Made by a program: the position numbers and the translations under genes. From positions 1-64,000 of the forward strand of contig DLHJ01000002.1 in assembly GCA_002483145.1 (NCBI GenBank): a stretch of DNA of 64,000 nt, given 5' to 3'. Numbering within the stretch: position 1 is the stretch's first letter; every line of letters begins with the position of its first letter. The notes beneath the pieces are model-generated. The model was not told the origin of the DNA and did not search any database. It was given only the letters and a program-made list of their open reading frames with translations. Below are positions 5,011-21,235 of this stretch, piece after piece. Origin of the DNA: Cellvibrio sp. UBA7671. GTDB lineage: Bacteria > Pseudomonadota > Gammaproteobacteria > Pseudomonadales > Cellvibrionaceae.

Positions 5011-5106
5011 CACCAGAATTTACGCGGTGATGGCGCAATAACTGCTATTAGATTAGGGTAAACTGCTGCCCGTTTTGCAGCCCCGCTGTGTTGATGAGTG
5101 TGTAAT

Positions 5107-6027
5107 ATGACCCCACGCAATTATTTATACCTGCTTAAAAAATACGATGAGTACCAGGTCCAAATCGAACGGTTGCTGGAATCCATTGTGACTTCATTGT
5201 CACCCAATAAATTGGAAACCTCGCACGAGCAATTGAATGAAGTCGTTAAACGTTTGCATCTCTCTTATCCTTTTGTAGAGTTGCTCTATTGTCTCGACGA
5301 AAAAGGTATACAAACCACCGAGTCTGCCGCGTCGCCCACAGTACCCGACCCCAAACGCCGCGAGCCAGGTTTTGGCTCTGATCGCAGCAATCGTGTTTAT
5401 TACACACTCGCGCGCGATAACACTGCGACTGCAACCGTAACCCAGCCTTATCTCTCCAGCGCCACTCACCAGTTGGCGATTTCCGCAGTGCAACGTTTTG
5501 TGGATGCCGATAATGCAACGCGTTATTTGGTGATCAATTTTAATTTGGAAAAACTGATCACCTTTTTGAATGGCGACAGTTTGCGCCGCGTGGTGCATCC
5601 ATTGTTCCAGGTGATTTACGGTGTGATCGGTATCATGCTGGTGTTGGTATCCATGCTCTTGTTATTTTCGGCGGGGCAATCGCTTTATGAGATGATCCAC
5701 GAACATACCAATACCGCTACCCAAGCGTTCCAATCGGTTATTTTAGTGACTTTGGGCTTGGCGATTTTTGATCTGGGTAAAACGATCCTCGAAGAAGAAG
5801 TGTTGCTGCACAAAGACATTCACCACACAGGTTCCACACGCCGCACCATTGCGCGGTTTATGTCGGCGATTGTAATTGCGGTATCGATTGAATCTTTGCT
5901 GCTGATGTTTAAATCCTTGCTCGGCGATGCCACCCATTTGAATTCTGCCGTATTTATGTTGTTTGCTGCAGTGGCACTGTTGGTAGGTTTGGGCGCGTAT
6001 TTAAAATTAACCAGCGAAAAGAAATAA
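5107..6027 (+). CDS. Membrane protein with PDC/Cache-like sensor domain
   Basis: The protein has about 306 residues from ATG 5107; a GTG at 5098 would add three residues, and neither has a good ribosome-binding site. The N-terminal two-fifths look like a soluble PDC-type ligand-sensing domain (helical start, then LYCLDEKGIQTTES, RVYYTLARD and TRYLVINFNL). Four hydrophobic segments follow (about 178-200, 215-235, 255-278 and 283-303). There is no output kinase, GGDEF or methyl-accepting domain, so it is an orphan sensor-like membrane protein. It lies 19 bases upstream of radA on the same strand. Function is unknown. Confidence 0.65.
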   Translation: MTPRNYLYLLKKYDEYQVQIERLLESIVTSLSPNKLETSHEQLNEVVKRLHLSYPFVELLYCLDEKGIQTTESAASPTVPDPKRREPGFGSDRSNRVYYTLARDNTATATVTQPYLSSATHQLAISAVQRFVDADNATRYLVINFNLEKLITFLNGDSLRRVVHPLFQVIYGVIGIMLVLVSMLLLFSAGQSLYEMIHEHTNTATQAFQSVILVTLGLAIFDLGKTILEEEVLLHKDIHHTGSTRRTIARFMSAIVIAVSIESLLLMFKSLLGDATHLNSAVFMLFAAVALLVGLGAYLKLTSEKK

Positions 6028-16545: not shown

Positions 16546-17295
16546 TTATCGCTTCCTGGCCTTGGTGTTAGATTGTTGTTGTGGGGTAAAGCGCAGTAAG
16601 CGATTCATGCCATATAGGCTCGCAGACCATAGTGCAATAAGTAATAAAAGTAAGAGTGTGGCAATAAAAGCAAAAATATCAGGCGCTTTCATCAAGGTGG
16701 TCATCAATGAATCCTGGTAATAAAAAAACCACTGATGCCCATCAGGAAATACCTGCACATGAAACCAATAAAATACTTCGGTAGGACCAATGATCAGGAC
16801 AATTGTAGTGATGGCTGCAAAGCCTGCTAAAAATCCGAGTAGAACTTTTTTTACGGGCGGGAGTTTTAATTTTTGGTGGTGTGCGAAAAAAATCAGTCCG
16901 ATCCATACCAATAAACACATTGTGCCCGTTACATAAAACACGTCGATGAGGTTTGCCACATCTTGCAAATGAATAATTTCTGCCTCATGCATTAACGCTG
17001 TGGTTTCGCCGTTTTTTAAATGGTAGCTAATCTCGCGTAAGCCTTTACCACTGGCTTGCACTGCATCGCTGATCTCACCAAACAGACGCCAGTGCTCCGC
17101 AGGTGTCGTCCATTCAAAATCATCTTTGTATCGATTCTGCGGTGCAAAGTCTGCGATGTGTTTATCCAGATGCAACAGCTTATAGCCAACGGGATAAGCA
17201 AAATGGTATTGCGCGAGTAAATGCCAACTCACTAATGCGAGTGCTATCAGTTGGCAGGTAAAAAATAAGGGCCAGAAAATAACGCGTTTCATCAT
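16546..17295 (-). CDS. DUF1461-family integral membrane protein
   Basis: A protein of about 249 residues from ATG 17295; an ATG at 17364 would add 23 residues, and neither has a strong ribosome-binding site. There are four hydrophobic segments: one at the N-terminus and three in the second half. The soluble loop after the first helix ends in a region that fits the family, and the FHVQVFPDGHQWFFYYQDSLM segment before the last helix is the DUF1461 signature. Function is unknown. It is transcribed divergently from the PEP-CTERM-like gene, with about 300 bases between the two starts. Confidence 0.7.
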   Translation of the reverse strand: MMKRVIFWPLFFTCQLIALALVSWHLLAQYHFAYPVGYKLLHLDKHIADFAPQNRYKDDFEWTTPAEHWRLFGEISDAVQASGKGLREISYHLKNGETTALMHEAEIIHLQDVANLIDVFYVTGTMCLLVWIGLIFFAHHQKLKLPPVKKVLLGFLAGFAAITTIVLIIGPTEVFYWFHVQVFPDGHQWFFYYQDSLMTTLMKAPDIFAFIATLLLLLLIALWSASLYGMNRLLRFTPQQQSNTKARKR

Positions 17296-17417
17296 GGTGT
17301 GTGACTCGAAATAGCAGCGCGGCAAAAATAGCACGGCGATCAAAACCCGGCTACAGAGATGCATCGCCTACATGGTCTTGTGGGTGACCTATTAATGCAG
17401 TCAGTTTATTGACGTTT

Positions 17418-17480
17418 TTTAGGTGCCAATTTGTCGATAAAATGAACACATTTGATGTTTTAGGTGCCATATTGTCGATA
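17418..17480 (+). promoter_or_regulatory. Two direct repeats, candidate enhancer (UAS) sites for a sigma-54 activator
   Basis: Two 22-base copies (17418-17439 and 17459-17480), each TTTAGGTGCCA, two A/T bases, then TTGTCGATA; 20 of 22 bases agree. They are 41 bases apart, close to four helical turns, so they lie on one face of the DNA. They end about 46 bases before a near-perfect sigma-54 promoter, at about -134 to -72 from the inferred start: the usual place for an NtrC/PrsR-type activator. Confidence 0.65.
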
Positions 17481-17525
17481 TGGGTGCCTAATAGAAACAA
17501 TGACTTGAGCGTATTTTTAAGCTAG

Positions 17526-17540
17526 TGGCACCTAAATTGC
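17526..17540 (+). promoter_or_regulatory. Sigma-54 (RpoN) promoter
   Basis: TGGCAC-N5-TTGC, an exact match to the -24/-12 consensus core, with the required ten bases between GG and GC. Transcription would start near 17552, giving a 45-base leader to the TTG start at 17597. Its first 11 bases are also the exact reverse complement of the left half of the upstream repeats. Confidence 0.8.
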
Positions 17541-17596
17541 CTATAGGTATGTGATGCTTTTCTCACATTAATGGGTCTTTGAAGGAGAAGTGCCAG

Positions 17597-18187
17597 TTGA
17601 AACTTCTGTGGAAATTTGTGGCATTAACTATGGTAACTGGCTGGTCCGCCTTATCTGCTTTTGGCGGTGAAATTACATGCCTGCCGGACAATCAGCGAGT
17701 TGCCATATTAAGTGATGCGATTGAATGCAAGACACTTAACTCGGTAAACCTTAATTCACCTGCCCAAATAGATGCGCTTTACGACGATCTCGGCGATCCT
17801 TGGGTCAAAGAAGGTGAGCTTACCGGATCGGGTGCAAATGATTTGTTCACTGTCGTTGCAGATAGCTGGGGCGTTGATGTCGAAGGACAGTGGTATATCG
17901 CGGATTCTTTTTGGGATAACTACAGTCGTGCGGTGATCACCATGCATGTTGGTCACGGTGGTGGTAATCCTGATGCATTTGCCTGGTTGATTACACCGGG
18001 TGAAATCTCGGGTTACTTTTCTTATGAAAGAATTTCGGGTACGGGTGGTGGTTTGTCTAATTTATTCTTGTTCGGATCTGGTGAGCCATTACTGAGAGTC
18101 TCTGAATCCAATATCGCACTCTTGCTGCTAATGGGTTTATGCTCTTTACTCATCTCCCGGCGATGTGCGTCTGTGCGTGTGAAGTAA
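17597..18187 (+). CDS. Secreted PEP-CTERM-like protein with an atypical sorting signal
   Basis: About 196 residues from a TTG at 17597, chosen because GAAGGAGAAG lies just upstream; a TTG at 17579 would put this site inside the gene. An N-terminal signal peptide (MKLLWKFVALTMVTGWSALS) is followed by a 150-residue, glycine-rich and acidic domain ending in GTGGGLSNLFLFGSG, as in many PEP-CTERM proteins. The C-terminus has the tripartite sorting layout: short motif (SES in place of PEP), hydrophobic helix IALLLLMGLCSLLI, then SRRCASVR. PEP-CTERM proteins are processed by exosortase and linked to exopolysaccharide and biofilm. A sigma-54 promoter fits that class. No exosortase gene lies in the window. 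Confidence 0.65.
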   Translation: MKLLWKFVALTMVTGWSALSAFGGEITCLPDNQRVAILSDAIECKTLNSVNLNSPAQIDALYDDLGDPWVKEGELTGSGANDLFTVVADSWGVDVEGQWYIADSFWDNYSRAVITMHVGHGGGNPDAFAWLITPGEISGYFSYERISGTGGGLSNLFLFGSGEPLLRVSESNIALLLLMGLCSLLISRRCASVRVK

Positions 18188-18203
18188 AATGTAATGAGTA
18201 ATG

Positions 18204-18232
18204 AAAGCCGCAGAATCTTCTGCGGCTTTTTT
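18204..18232 (+). terminator. Intrinsic terminator of the PEP-CTERM-like gene
   Basis: AAAGCCGCAGAA and TTCTGCGGCTTT form a perfect 12-base-pair stem, followed by T residues, 16 bases after the stop. Confidence 0.85.
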
Positions 18233-18372
18233 GTTAGTGCTTTTGCATCATTAAAAATAAACTCTCCGTGATGTTTTGTGGCCAGCGGTCACATAAGTGT
18301 CTTAATTTTGTCATAGAATTCCGACGTTATTGAGCGAACTCTCCCCAAGCCCTTTACGAGTGAGATGACACA

Positions 18373-19011
18373 GTGCCAGAACTATTAGCCCCACCTGCCA
18401 AGAACACCTATCACACTTACGGAATTTGGTTGTACACCGAAAAAAGCCGGGAAATTAAAAGCCTCAAAAAAGAGCGCAGCCCAAGTGTACATGGCGATAA
18501 ACATTGGGATTCAAGCTACCTGTTGATGGATTACTTTACCCATAACCCGCTCAAGAAAAAAAGCCGGATATTGGATGTGGGTTGCGGCTGGGGTCCCACC
18601 TCCATTTACCTGGCTAACAGCGGCCACGGCGTTACCGGTTTGGACGTGGACGATGAAGTGTTTGCTTTTTTGGATGTACAAGCCGAACTCAATGGTGTTG
18701 CTGTAAAAACCCGCCAGGGAGCAATGGCCTCTATGAAAAAAGCCGACTTGAGCAAATACGATGTAATTGTCGGTGGCGATATTTGTTTCTGGGATGAATT
18801 GACCGATGAATGGTTTGCAATGCTTAAGCGTGCCGCGAGCGCGGGTGTAAAAAAATTGGTATTAGCCGATCCGGGGCGCAGCCCGTTTTTAAAATTAGTG
18901 GATAAGTGCTACGAGCGTTGGGATTGTGATATGCATACCTGGTACTGTCTGGAGCCCAAGCGGTTTACCGGTAGCTTGTTGATTGTCAATCTGGATAAAA
19001 AAGCAGATTAG
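18373..19011 (+). CDS. Class I SAM-dependent methyltransferase (ETFB-lysine MT-like)
   Basis: A 212-residue methyltransferase. The SAM-binding loop is ILDVGCGWGPTSIYLA (about 65-80), followed by the acidic turn GLDVDDEVF and the post-strand-4 motif VIVGGDICFWDE, which resembles the GD(I/V)FY motif of protein-lysine methyltransferases of the METTL20/ETFBKMT and nicotinamide-methyltransferase-like class. The start is GTG 18373 with GAGTGAG upstream. The target is unknown; a protein lysine is the best guess. It lies alone between a terminator and a convergent flavoprotein gene. Confidence 0.75.
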   Translation: MPELLAPPAKNTYHTYGIWLYTEKSREIKSLKKERSPSVHGDKHWDSSYLLMDYFTHNPLKKKSRILDVGCGWGPTSIYLANSGHGVTGLDVDDEVFAFLDVQAELNGVAVKTRQGAMASMKKADLSKYDVIVGGDICFWDELTDEWFAMLKRAASAGVKKLVLADPGRSPFLKLVDKCYERWDCDMHTWYCLEPKRFTGSLLIVNLDKKAD

Positions 19012-19115: not shown

Positions 19116-20846
19116 TTACACTTCGGTAGATTCGGTTTCAATCAAGCGGGAACCGAATACCTTGGTGTAGTCGAGCTGTGGTTCGGTAGTCTTGTGTTCC
19201 GCCTCTGCAATTTTTTCCATTTCCTTGACGGGGGCTGCAGGAACAAAAGGTGCAACTGGTTTAACGTGCTCATAACGGCCAGATGCGATCACTTCATTTT
19301 CATCCAGTGCCTTTTTCAATATGTGTTGCACTTGTGCGCTGGGTGAATCGGCAGGGCAGGCGATCATATCCATATAATCAATACCCAGGCGATAGGGTGG
19401 CCAACCATTTTCCAAGCCGGTTTTTACCAATTGGCGATAGCAGTTTTTCGCGCGCGCGACATCTTCAGGGTTTTTACGATCAAACAACACTGGAATCGTG
19501 CCTGACAGTGTACGCGATGAGCGTGAAGTTACGGCGAGCAGCGGATCAAATCCATTATCGGTTAAACATTTGCTCATTACTGTGCGATAGCGCTCTACTT
19601 CATCGGATGTAAAAGGCACCAGCGGTGCATACCATAAAATACCAGCGCCATCTTTAGCGGGATGCGAATGCACATCGAGTTTTTTTGCGGTGGGGTCGAG
19701 TGCGTAAGCAATTTTTAAAAACGCAACGATCGGATAACCTTCAACAGTGCCGAGAGTATTCACCAGTGCACCAAAGTGACGGCGCAAGGATGAGAGACCC
19801 CATTGTGGTAAATAATTCTGGATCTTTTGCAGCTGTTTAATTTGGTTCGGGCTAAAACTCCATACGCGACAATTTTTTAACCGGCGGCGAATATCTTTTA
19901 CAGAACCAGCAACTGCCGCACGTGAACCGTATAAGGTTCCCAATCCTGTCCAGGCAGAAATTTTTCGTTCTTTCGCAAGTCGTTTTAAATAATTTGCACG
20001 CGCCTCACCCATTAGGAGCGATGCTAAAGGCGTATCGACTTGAGTGGAGAGAATGCGGCAATCATTCATCATAATAATACCGCCGATACCGGGGATATCT
20101 TCTGCAAGTTTGTTTAGCTCGGATTGGCTATTGATAAAAGCGTCATTGGTTTTCCATTCGAAGACTAAAATTCGGGTAGCTTCCGGTGAACGAGCCAATT
20201 GCACGCGCGCTTTGGTGACTATTCCGAAATTACCTTGCCGTAATAATCCCGCCCATGAATAACCGGTGCCCGCATTCCAGCGCTTGGCCATCTCGGGACA
20301 ATTTAAATCCTGATAGGTGTGGCGAAACTCGGTGCCGTTGCCCCAGTAACCTTCCAATTCACTGATGGCATCAAAGTGATCGGTAATGGGTGTTAAGCCA
20401 TAACCGCCGTCGAGTGCATTGCCGAGAATATTGCCGTTGGGGCCAACGCCGGTGGTGGGAACTAATAAATCCGCACCGCTTTTTTTAATCGCCGCATGTA
20501 AATCCGCTTGGGTAACTCCCGGTTCAATTAATGCGGTAGAGGATTGCACATCGATATATACGCGGCGCAGTTGCGATAAATCCACAATAAAACTGCGGCT
20601 GTCTACGGGTAGCGAAGTACCGTAACCAAAATTGCGTCCGCCACTAATTGGCCAGAGCGGTATTTTAAATTCATTGGCGAGTGCTAATACTTCCTGAATT
20701 GCATCCACTTCTTTAATGACAATGGCACCGGCGGGCAAACGTTGGCTTGCGCCGGTATCTGCTCCGTAATGAAAAGCCGCTTCTTCACGACTCAAGACTT
20801 TGGCACCGGGAATACGCAATACTTCGCTGAAAAAAGAGGTAGTCAT
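19116..20846 (-). CDS. FAD-linked oxidoreductase of the VAO/PCMH family (4-cresol dehydrogenase-like)
   Basis: A 576-residue flavoprotein. The FAD domain has PISGGRNFGYG, VIDLSQLRR-like VDLSQLRRVYID, TGVGPNGNILGNALDGGYG and LLRQGNFGIVTKARVQL, all typical of the vanillyl-alcohol oxidase and p-cresol methylhydroxylase group. The C-terminal substrate domain ends near residue 530, and a 40-residue, lysine/glutamate-rich tail follows. The group oxidises 4-alkylphenols or lignin-derived phenols. No cytochrome subunit gene is next to it, so the electron acceptor is unknown; it might be an oxidase. Start ATG 20846 has GGAAG six bases upstream; ATG 20852 would abut that site. Confidence 0.82.
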   Translation of the reverse strand: MTTSFFSEVLRIPGAKVLSREEAAFHYGADTGASQRLPAGAIVIKEVDAIQEVLALANEFKIPLWPISGGRNFGYGTSLPVDSRSFIVDLSQLRRVYIDVQSSTALIEPGVTQADLHAAIKKSGADLLVPTTGVGPNGNILGNALDGGYGLTPITDHFDAISELEGYWGNGTEFRHTYQDLNCPEMAKRWNAGTGYSWAGLLRQGNFGIVTKARVQLARSPEATRILVFEWKTNDAFINSQSELNKLAEDIPGIGGIIMMNDCRILSTQVDTPLASLLMGEARANYLKRLAKERKISAWTGLGTLYGSRAAVAGSVKDIRRRLKNCRVWSFSPNQIKQLQKIQNYLPQWGLSSLRRHFGALVNTLGTVEGYPIVAFLKIAYALDPTAKKLDVHSHPAKDGAGILWYAPLVPFTSDEVERYRTVMSKCLTDNGFDPLLAVTSRSSRTLSGTIPVLFDRKNPEDVARAKNCYRQLVKTGLENGWPPYRLGIDYMDMIACPADSPSAQVQHILKKALDENEVIASGRYEHVKPVAPFVPAAPVKEMEKIAEAEHKTTEPQLDYTKVFGSRLIETESTEV

Positions 20847-21235
20847 GTTCATCTTCCTTTCAAATGCTGAATGACAAAAATTGCTTGAAGAGCAAAGGTG
20901 GGCTTGTTACTGCTCGCTTAAATATGTTCAAAAATTCGACATTTTTGCGGCAGTCACACAAGCATCAGCAAGAACTATGACAAATCTAAATTTCTTAACG
21001 TTTTCAACGGGTTTAATTATTATTTTGTAGTTGATGCCATCAAATTGACGCTTCAATCCTGTAGTGCGTTTTTAGTTATGGTGATTTAAGCGACAAGGGG
21101 GCAGATTAAAAGCGGGATTGTAATTATAAAAAAGTGTGCATTATTAATTTTGCAGAAGAAGGTAAGTGTGGATAAGTTGCGTGGAGTTTTAATGGATTAA
21201 TAATCAAAAATTATGTGAAGCATTCGGATGGAATA
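20847..21235. other. AT-rich intergenic region between the flavoprotein and dapE genes
   Basis: No coding frame with protein-like content is visible on either strand. It holds the start region of the flavoprotein gene at its left end. Several A/T runs are present, but no clear promoter hexamers with correct spacing could be assigned. Confidence 0.5.

Follow-up and report, generated by a model that had tools for sequence, protein, structure and literature searches.

In a 64,000-nt stretch of DNA from Cellvibrio sp. UBA7671 (the window, meaning the whole stretch analysed), the region between two divergent genes holds a sigma-54-type core and, upstream of it, two near-identical direct repeats. 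Which regulator does this region serve, and do the repeats define the sequence that the regulator binds? Taken as a whole, the intergenic region is, in our reading of the sequence, very probably a sigma-54 promoter of the PrsK/PrsR (PEP-CTERM) regulon, and it looks like a tightly switched promoter driving a secreted, sorting-tagged protein. A preliminary description of the locus had proposed an RpoN promoter under the same system; it was right in outline, but the repeat that it took for the regulator's motif turned out to be something else.

Direct repeats and the sigma-54 core

The region and its divergent neighbour contain the following elements.

16546-17301, minus strand: gene for a Lit-type membrane protein (PF07314), the divergent neighbour, which has the intergenic region in common with the window gene
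17418-17439, plus strand: direct repeat copy 1, TTTAGGTGCCAATTTGTCGATA, whose last 8 bases are the left part of the PrsR box
17459-17480, plus strand: direct repeat copy 2, TTTAGGTGCCATATTGTCGATA, without a complete PrsR box
17526-17540, plus strand: sigma-54 -24/-12 promoter, TGGCACCTAAATTGC, recognised from the sequence, a promoter matrix and homologous loci
17552, plus strand: predicted start of transcription, some 12 bases beyond the -12 GC, placed by sigma-54 promoter geometry

The TGGCAC-N5-TTGC core at 17526-17540 and the two upstream 22-base direct repeats, 41 bases apart, are present as first described. The repeat copies are identical at 20 of 22 bases, with starts offset by 41 bases, and 45 bases lie between copy 2 and the core. 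Sigma-54 promoters in general start transcription about 12 bases past the -12 GC. With up to 3 mismatches allowed, the repeat pattern was found at 2 places in the window and in 0 of 100 shuffles. Further copies, whose absence would by the preliminary description's own criterion count against a regulon motif, were sought in the 5.04-Mb genome with the pattern shortened by one base and up to 3 mismatches allowed; this recovered only the same two places and one match with 3 mismatches.

Exact matches to the 10-base sigma-54 core number 13 in the genome, and the reversed control pattern has 5. This is near chance frequency, and the exact core was rejected as standalone evidence. What makes the core credible is its placement behind a PrsR box and its retention in homologous loci. 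One could still suppose that the sigma-54 site and the repeats are chance or decayed sequence and that the gene is driven otherwise; the frequency of the bare core would allow it, and both the box and the sorting tag of this locus are degenerate. We regard this as scarcely credible, since the same architecture recurs in 13 of 15 homologous loci and no convincing sigma-70 promoter was found in 17250-18400 (1 found versus 2.1 expected).

At the window locus, TTTAGGTGCCA matches the reverse complement of TGGCACCTAAA at every position (11 of 11 bases; maximum 10 in shuffled upstream sequence), and the preliminary description had suggested that this complementarity between promoter and repeat half may let the activator touch the promoter itself. 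The other 12 homologous promoters showed 9 of 11 matching bases in one case and 5-8 of 11 in eleven, each within its own shuffled range. Because the complementarity is lost in these 12 promoters, the idea of such a contact is unsupported, and we rejected the complementarity as a conserved feature.

The PrsR box and its regulon

Haft et al. 2006 (PMC1569441) described a 17-nt motif ending in TTTACA that precedes 99 of 167 PEP-CTERM genes of proteobacteria and lies 62.8 +/- 10.6 nt (32-92) before a sigma-54 motif. By comparison of promoters, the PrsR box of the genus is TGTCGA-N5-TTTACA, with TTTACA taken from that paper and the left half derived in this analysis. The window contains one such box at the relevant place.

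17432-17448, plus strand: PrsR (PEP-CTERM) box, TGTCGATAAAATGAACA, with 10 of the 12 fixed bases of TGTCGA-N5-TTTACA

To score it, we used a matrix from 19 PEP-CTERM promoters in other genomes of the genus, namely loci preceding PEP-CTERM-like ORFs, chosen among 30; the window's genome and the gene's family were excluded. The window's box ranked 1 of 127,968 positions, and the sigma-54 promoter at 17526-17540 ranked 2 of 127,966 window positions with a promoter matrix from other genomes. As a pair they reached a combined score of 29.0, versus 15.2 for the next place in the window and at most 13.8 in 10 simulated windows. The box alone scored 13.4, below all 19 training boxes (17.2-25.8, as scored by the matrix that contains them), and is therefore weak or derived. 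Unlike the motif of PMC1569441, it reads TGAACA at its 3' end instead of TTTACA. The gap between box and promoter is 77 bases at this locus versus 51-65 in the training set, and falls inside the 32-92 range of PMC1569441.

The box consists of the last 8 bases of repeat 1 and 9 bases beyond it. In repeat 2 the equivalent frame scored -8.9, and the second half of the box is missing. We therefore rejected the 22-base repeat as a regulon motif: the genome holds no other good copy of it, and repeat 2 is not a PrsR box. The predicted motif of the regulator is the TGTCGA-N5-TTTACA box, which only repeat 1 carries.

Two other places in the window attracted high scores. The top promoter-matrix score (18.9) belonged to a sigma-54-like site, TGGCGCAATAACTGC, at 5031-5045 on the plus strand, about 50 bases before a 309-aa membrane-protein-like ORF (5098-6027); the combined scan paired no box with it. 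The second-highest box score (12.8) was that of a PrsR-box-like sequence at 20925-20941 on the minus strand, about 70 bases before a 578-aa ORF (19116-20852, minus strand) that appears FAD-oxidase-like by eye; no sigma-54 site was paired with it.

A search of 96 genomes found homologues of the window protein in 14: the genome of the window itself, 12 more from the same genus and a single more distant one. Together they provide 15 homologous loci. In 13 of these, the window's among them, a box is followed after 72-77 bases by a -24/-12 promoter; with the patterns used, neither box nor promoter was found in L063 and L064, the more distant homologues. In the alignment of the 13 loci, GTCG of the box and GG and TGC of the promoter are invariant, and the second TGTCGATA (in repeat 2) is not conserved. 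Nine of the 15 loci, the window counted, have the Lit-type neighbour upstream; in L062 it is found on the opposite side of the gene.

If the repeats are not the motif, what are they? Two GGYGCC-type elements account for much of them.

17417-17428, plus strand: 5' accessory element TTTTAGGTGCCA (GGYGCC type), immediately upstream of the box, similar in some homologous loci
17458-17469, plus strand: 3' accessory element TTTTAGGTGCCA, with 14 bases between the box and GGTGCC and an invariant GC inside

As far as sequence comparison goes, the repeat's left half is an element in its own right, an accessory sequence of the GGYGCC type that is conserved in part. The two 22-base repeats combine one such element on either side of the box with an incomplete duplicate of the box's left half. 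An element of this type lies 3' of the box in most homologous loci and also 5' in a subset, and the GC within the 3' element is invariant in the alignment of the 13 loci. The elements may bind a second transcription factor or help PrsR, giving two upstream inputs, a reading compatible with PrsR control. In its favour, most homologous loci retain the element close to the box, and two GC columns are the same in all 13 aligned promoters, but it could hardly be general: among 59 other PrsR spacers, which ended at the promoter, GCGCC was found in 7 versus 2.8 expected (shuffles up to 8) and GGYGCC in 1 versus 0.8 expected. We consider such a second input possible, if on balance unlikely, and the small excess led us to reject GCGCC as a general spacer element.

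A different account would make the full 22-base repeat the site of another, gene-specific enhancer-binding protein that binds as two phased dimers, with the likeness to a PrsR box incidental. Two near-identical copies 41 bases apart, found only at the window locus, speak for it, and GGYGCC-type elements flank the box 41 bases apart in G012 as well. Candidate proteins exist, too: ten other sigma-54-activator-like proteins of the genome scored at least 295 bits with the PrsR model, below its cut-off, some of them partial. However, the homologous loci retain the box and its fixed gap and not the second TGTCGATA, and the PrsR matrix, built without the window gene, ranks the box first and puts repeat 2 at -8.9. 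This makes a gene-specific activator very unlikely, and we keep to PrsR as the predicted activator.

The prsK, prsR, prsT and rpoN genes were found in the genome, which is 99.85% complete. Model scores exceeded the cut-offs for PrsK (572 bits, cut-off 300), PrsR (704.9, cut-off 502.6), PrsT (353.5 as two pieces of one frame, cut-off 312.2), RpoN (494.6, cut-off 277.35) and the CRP equivalog (371.7, cut-off 266); IHF alpha is also present. prsK and prsR are adjacent, near exopolysaccharide-type glycosyltransferases and an exosortase-family protein. In a scan of this neighbourhood, the latter scored above the cut-off of TIGR04178, the general exosortase/archaeosortase signature (54.9 versus 23), and below those of XrtA (138.9 versus 208) and TIGR02602 (97.7 versus 105.55). 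The preliminary description had invoked a PrsK/PrsR system, and the prsK and prsR genes are present.

The exopolysaccharide cluster next to prsR includes an ABC-exporter-like gene, and about 200 bases before it lies a one-mismatch PrsR box (TGTCGGATAGTTTTACA; L096, 9832-9848, minus strand, contig C1 of G000). On the same contig, about 15 kb from prsK/prsR, a gene for a Thoeris type III ThcA anti-phage protein (L097, 14399-14959, minus strand; 247.8 bits, cut-off 110) adjoins a DnaB-like helicase.

We found 26 PEP-CTERM candidates in the genome, 22 of them above the model's cut-off. In 9 of the 26, a box with at least 10 of 12 bases lies 53, 54, 64 or 65 bases before a sigma-54-like site (overall span, 53-65 bases). 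Among these nine, the -24 GG is missing at L028, and L027 and L045 have sites that fall partly within the longest open frame; a tenth pair, at L041, was left uncounted for a -12 element without GC. At the thresholds used, the pair was not seen for 17 of the 26. The box alone was uninformative without the promoter, a genome scan with 1 mismatch giving 40 matches versus 40 for the reversed control.

Over 21 genomes of the genus, 63 box-promoter matches were obtained in 20 genomes, versus 11 for the reversed control, and 22 of the 30 matches returned as loci precede a PEP-CTERM-like ORF. In the wider family (61 genomes), a stricter pattern gave 56 matches in 27 genomes versus 4 for the control. 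The preferred spacings between box and promoter are about 51-55 and 62-65 bases in the genus, and 72-77 in the window gene's family. These comparisons established the box, the promoter and their spacing, and mark the window promoter as a real, conserved member of a known regulon. The gene had been described as a small regulon member; it is indeed preceded by one of many such promoters in the genus, but the repeats are not the activator motif.

The product of the gene

Downstream of the promoter, the gene shows the following features.

17597-18187, plus strand: predicted exported protein of 196 aa, PEP-CTERM type, with an N-terminal helix, a strand-rich middle and a C-terminal helix
18098-18163, plus strand: degenerate PEP-CTERM signal, VSES-NIALLLLMGLCSLLIS-RR, from an alignment of 11 family members
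18203-18230, plus strand: intrinsic terminator-like hairpin (2 found in the region versus 1.1 expected in shuffles)

Counted from its first start codon, the ORF extends over 17579-18187. The TTG at 17597 is the likelier start, judged by AAGGAG at 17582-17587, and would give the 196-aa product. The hairpin 3' of the gene is consistent with a single-gene unit.

The window protein had no match in Pfam or NCBIfam, TIGR02595 included. When TIGR02595 was applied to 8 relatives, 4 passed the 16-bit cut-off, 3 were below it (15.9, 13.3 and 13.1) and 1 had no match; PF07589 (PEP-CTERM motif) gave E values up to 1 in 5 of the 11 aligned members, the best being 0.0045. In the alignment of the tails, a Glu and an Arg-Arg are invariant in 11 of 11, with a hydrophobic stretch between them, and the tag occurs as VPEP, VSEP, LPEP, LPES, LSES, VSEA, LLEP and VSES. 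VPES and VSEP tags were found in other genes of the window's genome, and at L124, in a different genome of the genus, a VSES tag follows a good box and promoter. Homology established by these relatives supports the PEP-CTERM-like product named in the preliminary description; secretion is predicted, and we infer both export and exosortase processing from the sequence. A structure model of the window protein and one relative (pLDDT 61.3, C-terminal helix at 170-193) supports, with low confidence, a strand-rich domain between two helices and is too weak to name a fold. The degenerate VSES tag was overlooked by the family models and became recognisable through the promoter and the homologues.

The locus resembles the promoters of PMC1569441 in its 17-nt upstream motif, its sigma-54 motif, its spacer, its apparent single-gene unit behind a large intergenic region, and prsK/prsR/prsT in the genome. 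As far as those promoters are described in the available part of that paper, the window differs in its direct repeats and GGYGCC elements, in a CRP-like dyad at the start site and in the VSES tag. Another comparable case is pepA of Aquincola tertiaricarbonis (PMC9850573), a PEP-CTERM gene with a TGGCAC -24 element, in a genome with prsK/prsR/prsT. Its promoter is RpoN-dependent, with the start mapped and an enhancer predicted upstream. Unlike the window gene, pepA is another gene of a different bacterium, and the available part of the report describes no IHF or CRP input.

IHF-like and CRP-like sites in PEP-CTERM promoters

Two further sites were recognised around the promoter. The consensus CRP dyad is TGTGA-N6-TCACA.

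17495-17507, plus strand: weak IHF-like site, AAACAATGACTTG, with 1 mismatch to WATCAANNNNTTR
17550-17565, plus strand: CRP-like dyad, TGTGATGCTTTTCTCA, with 1 mismatch to the consensus, over the predicted start site

The IHF-like site lies 31 bases before the -24 element, in the orientation opposite to the usual one at that place. In 9 of the 13 homologous promoters, a CRP-like dyad with up to 2 mismatches begins 24 or 25 bases past the promoter's first base, so that it overlaps the expected start site. One more promoter has the dyad at 30 bases, and in three of the 13 no such dyad was found. The nine loci are related (L057 and L058 are nearly identical) and therefore not independent.

We then counted both kinds of sites in the spacers of the genus matches, which ended at the promoter, by mismatches to the consensus and not by matrices. 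IHF-like sites (up to 1 mismatch) were found in 32 of 63 spacers versus 9.3 expected from shuffles, and CRP-like dyads (up to 2 mismatches) in 14 of 63 versus 1.7. Without the window gene's family, the counts were 31 of 59 versus 8.8 and 13 of 59 versus 1.3, respectively. The outcome was the same on 51, 63 and 59 rows, the 51 being those left without 4 rows of the gene's family and 8 dropped by eye. Because the 63 matches include orthologous promoters, a count by protein cluster was added, in which 22 PEP-CTERM-like genes formed 15 clusters, one of them the window gene's family. An IHF-like site was present at -34 to -16 in 11 of the 15 clusters (control mean 0.61, maximum 3), and a CRP-like dyad within -64 to +60 in 9 of the 15 (control mean 0.64, maximum 4). 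The control windows were mostly coding DNA of the same loci. In the regulon, most IHF-like sites fall at one of two places, -30 to -32 on the minus strand and -18 to -20 on the plus strand, counted from the first base of the -24 element.

In the wider family, 26 of the 27 loci L139-L165 had readable promoters (L145 belongs to the same genus as the window). Eleven of these had an IHF-like site, 10 of them at the same favoured positions. CRP-like dyads upstream of the promoter were rare (3 of 26, all with 2 mismatches), and we rejected them as a feature beyond the genus. Comparison thus established the recurrence of CRP-like dyads, and of IHF-like sites at mostly fixed positions, as an enrichment in PEP-CTERM promoters of the genus.

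These observations suggest a sequence of events at the window locus. PrsK would phosphorylate PrsR, and PrsR would occupy the box at 17432-17448. The intervening DNA up to the promoter would bend, probably with IHF, and at 17526-17540 PrsR would open the complex of sigma-54 RNA polymerase. Transcription would begin near 17552 and yield a single-gene mRNA for an exported PEP-CTERM protein destined for exosortase processing and the exopolysaccharide matrix. At the dyad over the start site, cAMP-CRP, if bound, might block or tune initiation. We tentatively extend this to the PEP-CTERM regulon of Cellvibrio, with a confidence a little short of even: it would be doubly controlled, switched on by PrsR/sigma-54 through a fixed IHF bend and vetoed or tuned by cAMP-CRP, at this locus over the start site. 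If so, these bacteria would link the display of their matrix proteins to carbon-source status.

In E. coli, cAMP-CRP input is negative at the sigma-54 promoters Pu, glnAp2 and dctA (PMC3900584); because several such promoters are inhibited, a negative role is the simplest guess here. Like Pu, the window has a sigma-54 promoter with an IHF-like site between activator site and promoter. Unlike the promoters as presented in the available part of PMC3900584, it has a CRP-like dyad that overlaps the predicted start and recurs in the PEP-CTERM regulon, and the role of CRP is a predicted one.

Few regulatory inputs to PEP-CTERM genes were found described in the literature, and the stimulus behind PrsK was termed obscure in 2006 (PMC1569441). 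Among the matches listed in the open-access literature, no title or abstract opening spoke of CRP or IHF input to PEP-CTERM promoters. To this picture the comparison adds a precise box for the genus, preferred spacings, mostly fixed IHF-like positions and a CRP-like layer. The last of these, absent from the preliminary description, is the most interesting part and directly testable. An exosortase substrate also appears in the gene table of an IHF RNA-seq comparison in Geobacter (PMC7962754).
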